Source: an uncultured Aliiroseovarius sp. (GTDB lineage: Bacteria > Pseudomonadota > Alphaproteobacteria > Rhodobacterales > Rhodobacteraceae). Taken from it: a stretch of 64,000 nt of DNA. Made by a program: the position numbers and the translations under genes. The stretch covers positions 1-64,000 of the forward strand of contig NZ_CANMFT010000006.1 in assembly GCF_947497285.1 (NCBI RefSeq). Direction: 5' to 3'. Below the pieces are notes generated by a model. The model made no database searches. It was not told where the DNA came from and saw only the letters and a program-made list of their open reading frames with translations. This document shows positions 21,975 to 29,430 of this stretch, one piece after another (the first letter of the stretch is position 1; every line of letters starts with the position of its first letter).

Positions 21975-23429
21975 ATGACCACAGTCATTAAAAATGGAAC
22001 CGTCGTCACAGCAGACCTTACCTACAAGGCAGACGTCTTGATCGACAACGGCAAGATCATCGAAATTGGCCCGGATCTGAAAGGCGACAAGGAGTTGGAC
22101 GCCACCGGCTGCTATGTCATGCCCGGCGGGATCGACCCGCACACGCATCTCGAAATGCCGTTCATGGGGACCTATTCCTCGGATGATTTCGAAAGCGGCA
22201 CGCGGGCGGCGCTTGCAGGTGGCACGACGATGGTGGTCGATTTCGCTCTGCCAAACCAAGGGGAAAGCCTGCTGGACGCATTGAAACGCTGGGACAACAA
22301 ATCGACCCGCGCGAACTGCGACTACTCGTTCCACATGGCGGTCACGTGGTGGGGCGAGCAAGTGTTCGACGACATGAAAACCGTCGTTCAGGAACGCGGC
22401 ATCAACACGTTCAAGCACTTCCTTGCCTATAAGGGCGCGCTGATGGTGAATGATGACGAGCTGTTCGCCTCGTTCAACCGTCTGGCCGAGCTGGGCGCGA
22501 CCCCAATGGTCCATGCCGAGAACGGCGACGTCGTGGCGGAACTGTCCGCCAAGCTGCTGGCCGAAGGCAACACAGGGCCCGAGGCGCACGCCTATTCCCG
22601 CCCGTCGCAGGTCGAAGGCGAAGCCACCAACCGCGCGATCATGATTGCCGACATGGCCGGTGCGCCGCTCTATGTCGTGCATGTGTCCTGCGAGGAAAGC
22701 CACGAGGCGATCCGCCGCGCCCGCATGCAGGGCAAACGGGTTTGGGGTGAGCCGCTAATCCAGCACCTGACCTTGGATGAAAGCGAGTATTTCAACAAGG
22801 ATTGGGATCACGCAGCGCGTCGCGTGATGTCGCCGCCCTTCCGCAACAAGATGCACCAAGACAGCCTGTGGGCCGGTCTGCAATCGGGCAGCTTGTCCGT
22901 CGTCGCGACCGACCACTGTGCCTTCACGACCGAACAAAAACGCTATGGCGTTGGGGATTTCACCAAGATCCCGAACGGCACCGGCGGGCTTGAGGATCGG
23001 ATGCCGATGCTCTGGACGAACGGCGTGGCCACGGGGCGCCTGACGATGAATGAATTTGTCGCCGTCACCTCAACCAACATCGCCAAAATCCTGAACTGCT
23101 ATCCCAAGAAAGGAGCTGTTCTGGTGGGGGCCGACGCCGACCTTGTTGTGTGGGATCCCGAGAAGGAAAAGACCATCACGGCAGGCAGCCAACAATCGGC
23201 CATCGATTATAACGTGTTTGAAGGCCACAAGGTCAAAGGCCTGCCCCGCTTCACGCTGACACGCGGCCAGGTTGCGGTGCATGACGGCGAGATCAAGACG
23301 CAGGAAGGCCACGGCAAGTTTGTTGAACGCGAACCGAACGCGACGGTCAACACCGCGCTCAGCAAATGGAAAGAACTGACCGCACCACAGCCGGTCAAAC
23401 GCACCGGCATTCCGGCGACAGGTGTCTAA
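21975..23429 (+). CDS. hydA: Dihydropyrimidinase (D-hydantoinase)
   Basis: This 484-residue amidohydrolase opens the ring of dihydrouracil or dihydrothymine to N-carbamoyl-beta-amino acids. Metal-binding residues are visible in GGIDPHTHLEMPFMG (HxH), in the carbamylated-lysine segment FKHFLAYKGALMV, in PMVHAENGD and VVHVSCEE (histidines), and in SVVATDHCAF (aspartate). The length matches bacterial dihydropyrimidinases. The ATG at 21975 follows GGGAGAAC. It lies 77 bases after the hydrolase gene and directly before the ABC ATPase gene. Together with PreTA and the hydrolase it completes uracil to beta-alanine. A role on other cyclic amides cannot be excluded. Confidence 0.95.
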   Translation: MTTVIKNGTVVTADLTYKADVLIDNGKIIEIGPDLKGDKELDATGCYVMPGGIDPHTHLEMPFMGTYSSDDFESGTRAALAGGTTMVVDFALPNQGESLLDALKRWDNKSTRANCDYSFHMAVTWWGEQVFDDMKTVVQERGINTFKHFLAYKGALMVNDDELFASFNRLAELGATPMVHAENGDVVAELSAKLLAEGNTGPEAHAYSRPSQVEGEATNRAIMIADMAGAPLYVVHVSCEESHEAIRRARMQGKRVWGEPLIQHLTLDESEYFNKDWDHAARRVMSPPFRNKMHQDSLWAGLQSGSLSVVATDHCAFTTEQKRYGVGDFTKIPNGTGGLEDRMPMLWTNGVATGRLTMNEFVAVTSTNIAKILNCYPKKGAVLVGADADLVVWDPEKEKTITAGSQQSAIDYNVFEGHKVKGLPRFTLTRGQVAVHDGEIKTQEGHGKFVEREPNATVNTALSKWKELTAPQPVKRTGIPATGV

Positions 23430-23430
23430 G

Positions 23431-24213
23431 GTGAGCACAGAAACCATCGTAAAGGCCGAGAACCTCTCGCTGACCTTCCAAACCAATGACGGCCCGGTGC
23501 ATGCGCTCAAGGACGTGTCGCTTGATATCAACAAGGGCGATTTCGTCAGCTTCATCGGCCCGTCGGGCTGTGGCAAGACAACGTTCCTGCGCTGCATGGC
23601 TGACCTGGAGGAGCCCACAGGTGGCTCGATCACGGTGAATGGTGTGTCGCCACGCGAGGCGCGTAAATCGCGCGCCTATGGTTATGTCTTTCAGCACGCA
23701 GGGCTGTATCCATGGCGCACCATCGGGCGCAATGTTCGCCTGCCGCTTGAAATCATGGGGTATTCGAAAGAGGACCAAGACGCACGCATCAAACGCGTTC
23801 TCGAACTGGTCGAACTGGACGGGTTTGAGAAGAAATTCCCGTGGCAGCTGTCTGGCGGGATGCAACAACGCGCCTCGATCGCGCGGGCGCTGGCGTTTGA
23901 CGCGGACATTCTGCTGATGGACGAACCCTTTGGCGCGCTGGACGAGATTGTGCGCGACCACTTGAACGAGCAGCTTTTGAAGCTGTGGGCCAAGACGCAG
24001 AAGACGATTGCTTTCGTCACCCACTCGATCCCCGAAGCGGTGTATCTGTCCACCAAGATCGTCGTCATGTCGCCCCGTCCGGGCCGGATATCCGACGTGA
24101 TCGAGAACCCACTACCGGTGGATCGTCCCTTGGACATTCGGGACACTCAGGCGTTTCTGGACGTCGCACATCGGGTGCGCGAAGGGCTGCGGGCGGGACA
24201 TTCCTATGACTAA
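23431..24213 (+). CDS. ABC importer ATP-binding protein (pyrimidine-type uptake)
   Basis: This 260-residue ATPase of the nitrate/taurine/thiamine-precursor class has Walker A FIGPSGCGKTTFLRCMADLE, the signature LSGGMQQRASIARALAF, Walker B ILLMDEPFGALDE and the H-loop IAFVTHSIPEAV. The start is uncertain. A GTG at 23431 just after the dihydropyrimidinase stop gives MSTETIVKAENL, and an in-frame GTG at 23422 would overlap that stop. The gene overlaps the first permease gene by 8 bases downstream. Because it sits in the pyrimidine operon, the importer probably brings in uracil, thymine, dihydropyrimidines or carbamoyl intermediates. This substrate assignment is contextual. Confidence 0.9.
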   Translation: MSTETIVKAENLSLTFQTNDGPVHALKDVSLDINKGDFVSFIGPSGCGKTTFLRCMADLEEPTGGSITVNGVSPREARKSRAYGYVFQHAGLYPWRTIGRNVRLPLEIMGYSKEDQDARIKRVLELVELDGFEKKFPWQLSGGMQQRASIARALAFDADILLMDEPFGALDEIVRDHLNEQLLKLWAKTQKTIAFVTHSIPEAVYLSTKIVVMSPRPGRISDVIENPLPVDRPLDIRDTQAFLDVAHRVREGLRAGHSYD

Positions 24214-25141
24214 GACCGCGCTTTCCGTTCTGACCGTTTTGGCTGCCATCGTCGTCATCTGGTATCTCGCTGTCGCGCCGATGAATATTCGCGTGGCTCT
24301 TGATCAGGCGGCACGCGCGGGCGCGGAAATTGAGCCCCCGTCAGCGGTTGAGCGGCGCAATGTGCCGATTTTGACCCTGATGTCGAACAACCGCGACCAC
24401 ATCGCGGCGGGATATGACCTTGATCGCCCCCGGCTTCCCACCCCCATGCAAGTCGGCGAAGAGCTGTGGAAGACCACGGGCGCGATGGTCCTGAAGGGGC
24501 GCACGTGGTCGAAACGGTCGCTGATCTATCACGGATGGATCACGCTTCAGTCCACCTTCTGGGGCTTCCTTCTGGGCACCACAATTGGCATCGTTGGTGC
24601 CATCGCCATCGTGCAGTCCCGCGTGATCGAGATGTCGGTGATGCCGTGGGCCATCATCTCGCAAGCCATCCCCATCGTGGCGCTGGCGCCGATGATCATC
24701 GTCTTGTCATCGCAGGTCGGGATCGAGGGGCGCGGGTTTCCCAAGGCGTTGATTTCATCCTACCTCTGCTTCTTCCCGGTGCTGGTGGGCATGGTCAAAG
24801 GCCTTCGCTCGCCCACCGCAGAGCAGTTGGACCTGTTGAAAACCTACAGCGCGTCCGGCGTGCAGCGGTTCCTGAAACTGCGCATGCCAGCTTCGCTGCC
24901 CTACCTTTTCACGTCGCTGAAAATCGGCATTGCGGCCGCTCTTGTCGGTGCCATCATTGGCGAGCTTCCGACGGGGGCAATCAGCGGTCTTGGCGCGCGC
25001 ATCCTGATCGGCGATCAGTTTGGCACGCCGTTGGCGATCTGGGCGGCGCTGTTTGCAGCCGCCATTCTGGCCGGTGTGCTGGTCACCCTGCTTGACCGAA
25101 CGCAGCATGTGCTGCTGCGAAGGATGGGGATGCGCTCATGA
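24206..25141 (+). CDS. ABC importer permease 1
   Basis: This 311-residue permease of the BPD_transp_1 type has an N-terminal membrane helix (LSVLTVLAAIVVIWYLAVAP), an approximately 80-residue extracytoplasmic loop, and a core of about five helices. The conserved EAA-type loop reads DLLKTYSASGVQRFLKLRMP. The long loop after helix 1 (about residues 30-110) is unusual against the shorter partner encoded next. The gene overlaps the ATPase gene by 8 bases and the second permease by 4 bases. The two permeases should form a heterodimer with the ATPase and the periplasmic protein at 26024-27013. Confidence 0.88.
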   Translation: MTKTALSVLTVLAAIVVIWYLAVAPMNIRVALDQAARAGAEIEPPSAVERRNVPILTLMSNNRDHIAAGYDLDRPRLPTPMQVGEELWKTTGAMVLKGRTWSKRSLIYHGWITLQSTFWGFLLGTTIGIVGAIAIVQSRVIEMSVMPWAIISQAIPIVALAPMIIVLSSQVGIEGRGFPKALISSYLCFFPVLVGMVKGLRSPTAEQLDLLKTYSASGVQRFLKLRMPASLPYLFTSLKIGIAAALVGAIIGELPTGAISGLGARILIGDQFGTPLAIWAALFAAAILAGVLVTLLDRTQHVLLRRMGMRS

Positions 25142-25983
25142 ACTGGTTGATCTTCGCCCTTGTCTTCTGGCTGGCGGCTTGGGCTGCAAATGTCACCATG
25201 GTCCGGTCCAAATGGTCCGACACGGCGCTTGTGCGATATGCGGTGCCGATCATCTTCGGCATGACACTGTTGGTCGCGTGGGAGGCTTTGGTCCACAGCT
25301 TCAACGTCTCAGCCGCAATCCTGCCGGCACCATCTGCGGTCGCGGACACGTTTGCGAACTCGACAGGGTTGCTGTGGGTGGATTTCAAGCAAACCGTTTT
25401 GAAAGGTGCGCTTAGCGGCTACTTTATCGGTGCGGGTGCGGCCTTTGTAATGGCGGTCTTGATTGACCGGTCCCCCTTCCTGACGCGCGGGCTTCTGCCC
25501 ATCGGGAATTTTGTGGCCGCCCTGCCCATCGTCGGCATCGCCCCGATCCTTGTCAGCTGGTTCGGGTTTGACTGGCAGTCAAAAGCGGCTGTGGTGGTCG
25601 TCATGGTGTTCTTTCCCGTTCTGGTGAACACGGTGCAAGGCCTGCGCGAAACCGACGCCATGCTGCGCGATCTGATGAAAACCTACGCCGCGGGATATTT
25701 CAAAACCCTGTGGAAACTGCGCATCCCGGCCGCCATGCCGTTTATCTTCAACGGGCTGAAAGTGGGGGCCACGCTGGCCCTGATCGGCGCAATCGTGGCC
25801 GAGTATTTCGGATCACCCACCCGCGGCATGGGCTTTCGCATTTCAACCGGTGTCGGCAGTCTGTCCATTGATCTGGTCTGGGCGGAAATTGCCGTCGCAG
25901 CATTGGCAGGCACGATGTTCTATGGTGTTGTGGCGTGGATCGAAAAGAAGGTGACATTCTGGCACCCGTCCCAACGAGGCTGA
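25138..25983 (+). CDS. ABC importer permease 2
   Basis: This 281-residue BPD_transp_1 permease starts LIFALVFWLAAWAANVTMV and has about six membrane helices. The EAA-type coupling loop is DLMKTYAAGYFKTLWKLRIP, close to that of permease 1. The start overlaps the previous stop by 4 bases. The C-terminal part, VWAEIAVAALAGTMFYGVVA, is the last helix. It is the heterodimer partner of the preceding permease in the ThiX/SsuC-like class. The AT-rich 40 bases after it contain the ribosome-binding site for the binding-protein gene and no obvious terminator, so all four transporter genes are probably cotranscribed. Confidence 0.88.
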   Translation: MNWLIFALVFWLAAWAANVTMVRSKWSDTALVRYAVPIIFGMTLLVAWEALVHSFNVSAAILPAPSAVADTFANSTGLLWVDFKQTVLKGALSGYFIGAGAAFVMAVLIDRSPFLTRGLLPIGNFVAALPIVGIAPILVSWFGFDWQSKAAVVVVMVFFPVLVNTVQGLRETDAMLRDLMKTYAAGYFKTLWKLRIPAAMPFIFNGLKVGATLALIGAIVAEYFGSPTRGMGFRISTGVGSLSIDLVWAEIAVAALAGTMFYGVVAWIEKKVTFWHPSQRG

Positions 25984-26023
25984 GCAATAATAATAACAAA
26001 CGAAGTTCAACAAGGAGAGAGAC

Positions 26024-27013
26024 ATGAAATTCAATTCAGTGATCGGGGCTGCTGCCCTGGCGCTCACCTCGGGCACCGCTGTGGCGGCGGACGAAGTGAA
26101 ATTGCAACTCAAATGGGTCACCCAGTCGCAGTTCGCGGGCTATTACGTCGCGCTGGACCAAGGGTTCTATACCGAAGAGGATCTGGACGTGACCATTCTG
26201 CCCGGTGGACCGGATATTGCGCCCACTCAGGTGATCGCAGGCGGCGGGGCCGACGTGATCGTTGAATGGATGCCTGCCGCACTGGCCGCACGCGAAAAGG
26301 GTCTGCCGCTGGTCAACATCGCGCAGCCGTTCGCGTCGTCCGGTATGATGCTGACCTGCTGGGGCGATGTCGGTATCAGCGCGCCGGAAGATCTGGCCAA
26401 CCGCACCCTTGGTGTCTGGTTCTTCGGCAACGAGTTTCCGTTCATGAGCTGGATGTCCAAATTGGGTATCGCAACCGATGGTGCAAGCGAAACAGGTGTC
26501 GAAGTGTTGAAGCAAGGTTTCAACGTCGATCCCCTTGTGCAACGTCAGGCCGATTGTATTTCGACCATGACTTATAACGAATACTGGCAGGTCATTGACG
26601 CCGGTGTCACACCGGAAGAACTGGTGACGTTCAAGTATGAAGACCAAGGCGTCGCGACGCTGGAAGACGGCCTTTACGTGATGGAAGAAAACCTGAGCGA
26701 CGAGGCGTTTACCAACAAGATGGAACGCTTCGTGCGCGCCTCGATGAAGGGTTGGAAATGGGCCGAAGAAAACCCGACCGATGCCGCCATGATCGTTCTT
26801 GAGTATGACGAAACCGGCGCCCAGACCGAGAACCATCAGGTGCGCATGATGGGCGAGATCGCCAAGCTGACGGCGGGTTCGAACGGTGCACTTGACCCGG
26901 CCGCTTACGAGCGGACGGTTCAGACGCTTCTGGCTGGCGGGTCGGACCCCGTCATCACGATGGAGCCTGAAGGTGCATGGACCAGTGCCATCACCGATGC
27001 TGCATTGAACTGA
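26024..27013 (+). CDS. Periplasmic NMT1/THI5-like substrate-binding protein
   Basis: This 329-residue protein has an N-terminal signal peptide (FNSVIGAAALALTSGTAVAA, cleavage near residue 22). A mature NMT1/THI5-like fold follows, with KLQLKWVTQSQFAGYYVALD at its start. The same fold binds hydroxymethylpyrimidine precursors in ThiY, so a pyrimidine-like ligand is plausible. The ATG at 26024 follows a strong AAGGAGAG site. It is the last gene of the operon, and a hairpin with a TTCG loop follows 15 bases after its stop. The ligand is inferred from fold plus operon partners, not from identified binding residues. Confidence 0.9.
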   Translation: MKFNSVIGAAALALTSGTAVAADEVKLQLKWVTQSQFAGYYVALDQGFYTEEDLDVTILPGGPDIAPTQVIAGGGADVIVEWMPAALAAREKGLPLVNIAQPFASSGMMLTCWGDVGISAPEDLANRTLGVWFFGNEFPFMSWMSKLGIATDGASETGVEVLKQGFNVDPLVQRQADCISTMTYNEYWQVIDAGVTPEELVTFKYEDQGVATLEDGLYVMEENLSDEAFTNKMERFVRASMKGWKWAEENPTDAAMIVLEYDETGAQTENHQVRMMGEIAKLTAGSNGALDPAAYERTVQTLLAGGSDPVITMEPEGAWTSAITDAALN

Positions 27014-27168: not shown

Positions 27169-27912
27169 TTGTTAGAAGAGATCAAATCACTTGCAATTCT
27201 GACGCTTGGAACCGCGCGGGATCTGGCCCCTATCGTCGGTGTCGTGGCCGTCTTCCAGTTTCTGGTTCTTCGCCAACCTATGGTCGATGTGGGTGACAAG
27301 CTTGTCGGGCTGTTGTTCGTCATGGCCGGTCTGGCAATCTTCGTGCGCGGGTTGGAACTGGCCTTGTTTCCGTTGGGCGAAACACTGGCAGATTCCTTTG
27401 CCAACAAGGGCAGCCTTGTTTGGCTGTTGCTGTTCGCTTTCGCCCTGGGGTTCGGCACCACAGTCGCCGAACCCGCCCTGATTGCCGTTAGCCGCGAAGC
27501 CGCGCGGGTGATGGCGGACATTGGGGCGGTTGATGCAGATGCAGCAGCGCAAGCCAGCTATGCCAACGCGCTGCGCTATACCGTTGCCGCCGCCGTTGGG
27601 TCGTCGCTCGTCATTGGCGTCATTCGTATCCTGCTGGGCTGGCCGATCCATTTCCTGATCATCGGTGGCTATCTGCTGGTGGTCGTGCTGACCGCCTTCG
27701 CGCCCGCCGAGATCATCGGCATCGCCTATGACAGCGGCGGGGTCACCACCTCGACCGTAACCGTTCCGCTGACGACGGCGCTTGGGGTCGGACTGGCAAG
27801 CGTCATTCGCGGACGCAACCCGATGATTGACGGCTTCGGGCTTGTCGCTTTTGCCAGCCTCTTGCCCATCGTCTTCGTTCTGGGGTTCGGGATCGTGGGG
27901 GGCATGAAATGA
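27169..27912 (+). CDS. DUF1538 membrane protein, UmpA-like antiporter subunit
   Basis: This 247-residue protein has about seven hydrophobic helices. DUF1538 proteins work in pairs; UmpAB of Halomonas has been described as a Na+(Li+, K+)/H+ antiporter. Key conserved stretches are [15 protein letters not shown] and [16 protein letters not shown], both repeated nearly identically in the next gene. The start is the TTG at 27169 (MLEEIKSL), because no nearer ATG or GTG exists in the frame before the first helix. The gene overlaps the second DUF1538 gene by 4 bases. It starts a four-gene operon with a PII-like and a CBS-domain protein, which suggests ligand-controlled ion exchange. Confidence 0.85.
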
Positions 27913-28691
27913 TCGCGGACCTCTTGGGAACGATTGTCGTCACCATCAAGGATGTGCTGCCAATTGCGCTGGTGCTGGTCATCTTTCAGGCCGGCGTGCT
28001 GCGCAAACCGATCCCCCACCTGAAAAGCGTGTTGATCGGCGGCGTCTATGTCGTGCTGGGACTTGGCTTGTTTTTGTTCGGGCTGGAACGCGCGCTGTTT
28101 CCGCTGGGCGAGGCGATGGCACGCCAATTGACCGACCCGGCGTTTCTGGGCGACCCGACGGACTGGACGGCACATGGCTGGACTTATCTCTTTGCCTTCG
28201 CAATCGGGTTCTCGACCACCATCGCCGAGCCTTCTTTGATTGCCGTCGCCATGAAGGCCCGCGAGGTTTCGGGGGGCACCGTCAAGGAATGGGGCCTGCG
28301 TCTTGCCGTGGCTCTGGGCGTGGCCCTGAGCCTTGTGTTCGGCACCTACAGGATCGTCACGGGCACACCGCTCTATCTTTACATGATGGTCGGGTATGCG
28401 ATTGTCATCGTGCAAACCATCTATGCGCCGAAAATCATCGTGCCGCTCGCCTATGACAGTGGCGGGGTGACAACATCCACCGTCACCGTGCCTTTGGTCG
28501 CCGCCCTTGGGCTTGGGCTTGCTTCGACCGTGCCGGGACGCAGCGCTGCCCTTGACGGGTTTGGGTTGATCGCGCTTGCCAGCCTGTTTCCGATGATCAC
28601 GGTCATGGGCTATGCACAGATCGTGCAATGGAATGAACGACGCCGGGGCGGTGCTGATCTGCCGCGTCACGAAACGGAGAACACGGAATGA
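27909..28691 (+). CDS. DUF1538 membrane protein, UmpB-like antiporter subunit
   Basis: This 260-residue DUF1538 protein has about seven helices and is the paired subunit of the preceding gene. The two motifs shared with its partner are [18 protein letters not shown] and [16 protein letters not shown]. The Glu-Pro and Asp-Ser-Gly-Gly residues lie in or near membrane segments, where they could bind cations. The start overlaps the previous stop by 4 bases, and its own end overlaps the PII-like gene by 4 bases. Strict overlap across the operon suggests fixed stoichiometry. Transport of Na+, K+ or H+ is known for the family in one case only; here it is inferred. Confidence 0.87.
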
Positions 28692-29041
28692 AGTTCAAAT
28701 TGATAATTGCGCTTGTGCAGGATGCATTGACCGATGCAGTGCTGGATGCCGCACGTGCGGCCGGGGCAACCGGGTCCACCGTCATCACCAATGTCAGGGG
28801 GGAAGGGCTTGAACAGAAAAAGACGTTCCTTGGCCTGACCGTCGCAGGCCAGCGCGACATGGCGCTGTTTTTGGTGGAAGAGCACCGCGCGACCACCATT
28901 CTGGAAACCATCAGCGATGCGGGTCGTTTTCTGGATGAGCCCGGGCGCGGCGTCGTGTTTCAACTGGATATCGAAGACGCCATCGGCCTTGAAACGCAAG
29001 TCCAGGCCCTGAAGACCTCGTTGGAGAAGGATGAACTATGA
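28688..29041 (+). CDS. PII-like signalling protein linked to the DUF1538 antiporter
   Basis: This 117-residue protein has the PII fold: KLIIALVQDALTDAVLDAAR as the first beta-alpha unit, then a T-loop-like stretch (NVRGEGLEQKKTFLG) and later helices and strands. The canonical uridylylated tyrosine of GlnB/GlnK is not apparent in the T-loop, so it is probably not part of nitrogen signalling through GlnD. PII-like proteins often bind nucleotides and gate a membrane partner (SbtB with SbtA is one example). Its gene overlaps the upstream DUF1538 gene and the downstream CBS gene by 4 bases each. Regulation of the antiporter by a nucleotide is therefore inferred. Confidence 0.82.
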   Translation: MKFKLIIALVQDALTDAVLDAARAAGATGSTVITNVRGEGLEQKKTFLGLTVAGQRDMALFLVEEHRATTILETISDAGRFLDEPGRGVVFQLDIEDAIGLETQVQALKTSLEKDEL

Positions 29042-29430
29042 GCACGCCGGAAGAGACACGGGTCAAAGATGCCATCAGCCAAAAGCCGCACGTCATCAAT
29101 GGTCTGGCGACGGTCGCGGATGCTTTGGAGATCATGCGCGACACCTCGCATGACGCCTTGGTCATCGAAAAGCGCTCGGTTGACGACGAATATGGCTTGA
29201 TCACCACCAACATGATTGCCCGTCAGGTCACTGCATCAAACAGAAACCCGTCGCGTGTCAGCGTCTATGAGGTTATGGAAAAGCCAGCGGTGCATATCTC
29301 TTGCGACATGCAGGCGCGCTATGCGATCCGCCTTCTGACGCGCCTTGGTCTGGAATTTGCCCTGGTGATCGAAGAGGGTCACTTGATCGGCACAGTCAAC
29401 CTGCGCGACCTCACTTTGGCCGAGATGTAA
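29038..29430 (+). CDS. CBS-domain protein linked to the DUF1538 antiporter
   Basis: This 130-residue protein consists of a CBS-domain pair. The first CBS motif covers ISQKPHVINGLATVADALEI onward, to about residue 60. The second covers YEVMEKPAVHISCDMQARYA, with FALVIEEGHLIGTVNLRDLT at its end. CBS pairs bind adenosine nucleotides or S-adenosylmethionine and control channels and transporters, including ion carriers. There is no membrane or catalytic domain. The gene is the last of the operon, overlaps the PII-like gene by 4 bases, and ends 15 bases before the convergent ugpC. It probably senses adenylates for the antiporter together with the PII-like protein. Confidence 0.82.
   Translation: MSTPEETRVKDAISQKPHVINGLATVADALEIMRDTSHDALVIEKRSVDDEYGLITTNMIARQVTASNRNPSRVSVYEVMEKPAVHISCDMQARYAIRLLTRLGLEFALVIEEGHLIGTVNLRDLTLAEM

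Follow-up and report, generated by a model that had tools for sequence, protein, structure and literature searches.

PII proteins tie the nutrient state of the cell to transport, and few PII–transporter pairs have been described. The precedents for docking through the T-loop are SbtA–SbtB and AmtB–GlnK, according to the accessible part of PMC8352866. For membrane proteins of the DUF1538 family, the closest described system is UmpAB of Halomonas zhaodongensis, which is encoded by paired overlapping genes: a 2017 study of a 4.2-kb fragment with four open reading frames (ORF1-4) reported that E. coli expressing just umpA and umpB had Na+(Li+, K+)/H+ antiport activity (PMC5484666, accessible part). 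The words PII and CBS are absent from the accessible text of that article, and no PII words occur either in other articles on DUF1538 and on UmpAB of cable bacteria (PMC6055358, PMC5996927, PMC10030654, PMC12093952); moreover, "P-II" is absent from PMC13255231, and the single "pii" of PMC7221264 is part of a motif string. A DUF1538–PII pairing was not found in titles and abstracts on PII-like proteins with transporters or antiporters, a search mainly of open-access literature. The records of plasmids carrying such genes already label the neighbours as "DUF1538" and "P-II family nitrogen regulator", therefore the parts are known; of their union as a regulated system we found no description in the literature searched. 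Here we compare with these systems a locus of an uncultured Aliiroseovarius sp., in which a DUF1538 pair is encoded together with a PII-like protein and a CBS-domain protein.

Results

The locus lies on contig 6 of a 3.37-Mb genome, within the stretch of 64,000 nucleotides analysed in this work (hereafter, the window). Four genes, all on the + strand, occupy positions 27169–29430: A (27169–27912), a UmpA-type DUF1538 membrane protein of 247 aa with a TTG start; B (27909–28691), a UmpB-type DUF1538 membrane protein of 260 aa; P (28688–29041), a PII-like protein of 117 aa; and C (29038–29430), a two-CBS protein (Bateman module) of 130 aa. As the first-pass annotation of this DNA had noticed, the genes overlap by 4 bases each, and the sequence reads ATGA at the A/B, B/P and P/C junctions. 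On the same strand, the operon of an ABC transporter whose binding protein is of the NMT1/THI5 type (23422–27013) stops 155 bases upstream of A. Between 26950 and 29550 no sigma-70-like promoter was found, and terminator-like sites were not above shuffles. No further match to a DUF1538 protein was found anywhere in the host genome, which encodes two other PII proteins elsewhere, both of the ordinary type.

The assignment of A and B to DUF1538 in the first reading was correct, as they scored 217 and 222 bits, respectively, against Pfam PF07556 (cut-off 22.6). Their best NCBIfam matches are UmpA and UmpB, at 334 bits for A and 313 bits for B; since these values are under the equivalog cut-offs of 490 and 500, A and B are homologues of UmpA and UmpB and not equivalogs, and antiport by the pair is predicted by homology only. 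The model NF041627, searched at E 1e-120, had zero matches in 398 genomes. The 16-residue segment said to be common to the two proteins is indeed present in both, at 27724–27771 in A and 28449–28496 in B (+ strand). In the AlphaFold2 model of A, built from 86 sequences (mean pLDDT 91.8), the segment spans a helix break; the model is all helical, with nine helical segments and breaks around E101 and directly after D188, where helices 180–192 and 198–212 are separated by residues 193–197. Across the 86 aligned A and B sequences, D188 and G190–T196 are invariant, and so are D18, E101, D221, R136, R153 and R216. In a profile comparison, the two halves of A did not match each other as an internal repeat (probability 1.2%, 22 columns). 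A matched no solved chain by sequence, nor by fold at E 0.001, therefore no fold kinship with SbtA or with known antiporters is claimed.

P scored 45.9 bits against Pfam PF00543 (P-II, cut-off 25), and in alignment A3 all 67 members, window P included, matched P-II. Its AlphaFold2 model has the ferredoxin-like PII fold (pLDDT 80; Foldseek best E 8.6e-6), with the T-loop as the low-confidence part, and matches many PII structures, among them, at rank 8, 5d4p (CPII in complex with bicarbonate and ADP), ordinary PII proteins matching equally well. The PDB chain 9p1x_H matched P weakly, and no paper with the code 9p1x was found. The T-loop segment (residues 40–57; 28805–28858, + strand) is tyrosine-free and, compared with both ordinary PII proteins of the host, shorter by five residues; the lack of a uridylylation tyrosine, already remarked for P, extends to 77 of 77 relatives. 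In GlnB and GlnK, a B-loop Lys and a C-loop Arg hold the ATP phosphates as a pair. The P family does not have this pair: in the B-loop, a Lys or Arg occurs in none of the 77 relatives (the position being set by alignment to the PII proteins of the host), and the C-loop is varied, with VGVSHQ (13/77) and VGVAHQ (11/77) as the commonest forms, any Lys or Arg in 16/77, and IGLETQ in window P. The P matches in six genomes carried flags for in-frame stops; in five of these genomes there was nothing special, the P frame being whole and ending a few residues before the end of the model.

The CBS pair expected in C was recovered as two stretches matching Pfam PF00571 (47 bits, cut-off 24). A profile of C built from 34 sequences matched the chain 5nmu_A of CBS-CP12 at 1.3e-35, the nearest in sequence among solved structures; however, C has 130 aa and the chain 208, and since the match stops at chain residue 126, the CP12 part is absent from C. 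Unlike CBS-CP12 and stand-alone CBS-pair proteins, C is encoded together with P and a transporter. CBS-CP12 binds AMP, and the motif of adenosine-binding CBS pairs is Gxx[ST]xx[DN]. In window C this motif is incomplete in both domains: CBS1 reads GLITTNMI (29194–29217, + strand), with Met where 68 of the 77 relatives have Asp, and CBS2 reads GTVNLRDL (29389–29412, + strand), with Asn in place of Ser/Thr. Among the 77 relatives it is complete in 15 for CBS1 and in 47 for CBS2, and, of the five nearest, one has it in CBS2 and four in neither domain. Thus, of the earlier proposal that both soluble proteins belong to nucleotide-binding classes, the family assignments stand (PF00543 and PF00571), but the B-loop Lys missing from P and the incomplete CBS motifs of the window weaken it; elsewhere in the family, given the complete CBS2 motif of 47 relatives, C may bind nucleotides.

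The conservation of the locus was evaluated in the best 80 of at least 547 relatives of A. The order A-B-P-C, on the same strand, was found in 77 of the 80 loci, including two with B split into two frames; in two of the exceptions a contig edge cuts B, and the third (L084) is A-B only. The closest named relatives in this set are Aliiroseovarius loci, with 81–87% identity in A, and the A of one alphaproteobacterial MAG is 89% identical to that of the window. Judged by their labels, the 80 loci range over taxa such as Alpha- and Gammaproteobacteria, Mariprofundus, Desulfobulbaceae and Nitrospirales; one assembly supplied two loci, with the labels Binatia and Myxococcota, that are possibly misbinned. 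With start codons chosen by script, overlaps were counted in 46/77 loci for A-B, 34/75 for B-P and 75/77 for P-C, the last being of exactly 4 bases in 55 of the 75. None of the ORFs in these 80 loci is a natural P-C fusion. Beyond the four, no flanking gene is constant, the commonest cluster being found in 15 of 76 loci and at scattered positions. The distances of A and P are correlated (Mantel r 0.84, a value that none of 999 permutations reached; 114 of 120 loci, with some few places entered twice); we set this aside as proof of contact, because joint inheritance predicts it.

More distant loci showed other arrangements. In ten of them A-B-P was found with no detected C, and in an eleventh (L122) likewise, the contig there ending 172 bases past P. 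In five, A and B are fused in a single frame of 504–574 aa followed by P and C; in another five, the fused AB is accompanied by a divergent PII (two of these are cut by a contig edge), and in four by two different PII genes (AB-P-P'). Two loci, L119 and L132, have A-B without P nearby, with P elsewhere in both genomes. In L127 (2499–6714) two DUF1538–PII clusters of different subtypes stand back to back, a fused AB-P-C and then P with split A-B, and in L172 (3738–8350) A-B-P is followed in one stretch by a fused AB with divergent PII.

In plasmids, A matched 9 records (tblastn), and the gene arrangement was taken from 7. The Methylocystis plasmid has A-B-P, and that of Chelativorans (L191:3217-4555) has a short first DUF1538 gene of 273 bases, then B and P. 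Five records are from Clostridia, in which a fused AB precedes a double PII protein of 217–224 aa, lying in Subdoligranulum inside a 305-aa frame. A general PII profile, built without those five sequences, found two PII domains in each protein, the second in every case at 1e-22 or better, the first at 1e-10 or better in four proteins and, as a partial match, at 3e-5 in that of Vescimonas; Pfam saw the second half in 5/5, and the first half above cut-off only in Peptoclostridium. Because the DUF1538–PII link is kept while the other parts vary, PII is the core partner of DUF1538, nearly universal, and the second soluble slot is taken by a CBS protein, by another PII or is empty. Therefore, of the PII and CBS sensor pairing noted at first, the PII partner stands, but the pairing is not fixed, CBS being one option for the second slot.

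In the phylum, 299 genomes were sampled; one family is overrepresented among them, so that the genome counts are not independent. DUF1538 was present in 116 genomes, and 95 had a P match at E 1e-15: 90 had both, 5 had P alone, 26 DUF1538 alone and 178 neither. DUF1538 thus occurs in 90 of 95 genomes with P versus 26 of 204 without it, with a Fisher p of ~1e-45 that is inflated because the sampled genomes are related. When wider stretches were inspected for 10 of the 26 genomes with DUF1538 alone, a divergent PII was next to DUF1538 in 9; in L185, no PII was found in the 1.2 kb between B and the contig end. C (at E 1e-25) was found in 62 genomes, every one with P and DUF1538, within ~70 bp of P in 60, at 371 bp in one and on another contig in one. 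By these counts, in the 299 genomes, C is confined to genomes that have P, and P is nearly confined to those that have DUF1538. The first-pass annotation had made its proposal depend on the recurrence of the four genes elsewhere, and they do recur, as A-B-P-C in the close relatives and as DUF1538 with P across the sample. The distribution of DUF1538 is patchy, with no match in 13 of 13 listed same-family genomes from other genera. In 14 control genomes, PF07556 was found in none and PF00543 in 13, therefore it is the special P, and not PII generally, that tracks DUF1538.

Some P-type PII genes are not directly next to DUF1538. In five loci (L164, L169, L171, L173 and L176) they adjoin the gene of an SH3_3-domain protein, which may represent a second PII partnership, and P has the gene of an ETF-quinone oxidoreductase as another neighbour in two loci, L161 and L164. 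In two genomes of one genus (L167:1317-4636 and L168:1121-4802) the P-type gene lies downstream of mutS, on the same strand.

Discussion

We consider it probable, though far from settled, that the four genes encode a regulated cation/proton antiporter, in which A-B is the carrier, P docks on it and tunes it, and C is a second sensor. A and B would form a two-part transporter of the UmpAB type. P, a dedicated PII-like protein and presumably a trimer, would dock on the cytoplasmic face of the transporter and insert its loop, throttling or releasing transport as GlnK does on AmtB and SbtB on SbtA, and C, co-translated with P, would adjust either P or the transporter. Given the SbtA–SbtB and AmtB–GlnK precedents, we infer docking and gating by P, the docking from linkage only, and likewise the trimeric state, the direction of control and sensing by P and C. 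The tight P-C junction suggests that C and P work together; C is absent or replaced by a second PII elsewhere and is therefore not essential.

Several lines of evidence argue for this regulated antiporter: A-B-P-C order in 77/80 loci, P-C overlap in 75/77, a PII beside DUF1538 in the A-B-P and the fused arrangements and in five Clostridia, no constant fifth gene and the PII fold of P, together with the finding that, without DUF1538, P occurs in just 5 of 95 genomes and C in none of 62. The recurrence of the pairing across distant bacteria, judged from gene content, suggests that the sensors may control the antiporter. On the other hand, the T-loop is shorter and modelled with low confidence, the B-loop Lys is absent from P, A-B clusters without adjoining P exist (L084, L119, L132 and L185), some P-type genes are away from DUF1538, and E. 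coli, in which the Halomonas pair was active, carries PII proteins of its own. Of the exchanger gated by two nucleotide sensors that was first proposed, the co-occurrence of the four genes holds and the regulatory link stays inferential, but the "two nucleotide sensors" are weakened.

The known pairs resemble the locus in part. Like it, SbtA–SbtB combines a transporter gene and a PII-like gene in one operon, with the PII fold, but window P lacks the cysteine-containing CGPxGC tail (PMC8352866, accessible part), and the fold of A, as said above, matches no solved chain. AmtB–GlnK shares with the locus a membrane transporter and a PII partner; however, window P has a shorter, tyrosine-free T-loop and no B-loop Lys. 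In another reading, the natural cargo of the DUF1538 pair is no cation: the pair could carry bicarbonate, a different anion or some metabolite, and P would then sense the corresponding state of carbon or energy, the part that SbtB plays for SbtA. Indeed, bicarbonate and ammonium carriers with PII partners are known (PMC8352866, accessible part) and the structure matches of P include the ADP- and bicarbonate-bound CPII. We regard this as unlikely: that structure is matched no better than ordinary PII proteins, Na+, Li+ and K+ antiport was measured for the Halomonas pair (PMC5484666, accessible part), no flanking gene family is constant, and UmpA matches no solved chain by fold at E 0.001.

That the transporter needs P and C as subunits for its structure or assembly, and that they are not sensors, is quite improbable. 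The strict gene order and the start/stop overlaps would fit such subunits, as would the incomplete CBS motifs of the window and a P without the GlnB/GlnK B-loop Lys, but Halomonas UmpAB alone was active in E. coli (PMC5484666, accessible part). Moreover, many A-B-P clusters have no C, and in some of the fused ones its place is taken by a further PII. By analogy with the Halomonas pair, active with only umpA and umpB expressed, P and C are probably dispensable for activity and, if acting, would modulate it. Finally, that the genes are merely co-expressed, with P and C acting on other targets in salt or pH stress, is very improbable: P without DUF1538 in 5/95 genomes and the several stand-alone copies adjoining SH3_3 proteins agree with it, but the link persists through gene fusion, loss and divergence to another phylum, which co-expression alone would rarely explain.

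Conclusions

Beyond the probable regulated antiporter of the window, we propose, tentatively and with some doubt, that transporters controlled by PII include a third broad class next to Amt–GlnK and SbtA–SbtB, formed by the DUF1538 carriers. Their control head would have two slots, of which one nearly always holds a PII-like protein and the other a CBS pair or a further PII, unless it stays empty. In the five Clostridia, fusion of the carrier halves goes together with fusion of two PII domains, a hint that the regulator mirrors the carrier in its two-part build. If this third class is real, the energy or nutrient state of the cell would directly set cation/proton exchange. Should DUF1538 antiporters in general be PII-controlled, many marine bacteria and some Clostridia would have their Na+, K+ and pH balance linked to a metabolic sensor, and one could test what a set of proteins annotated as "P-II family nitrogen regulator" do.
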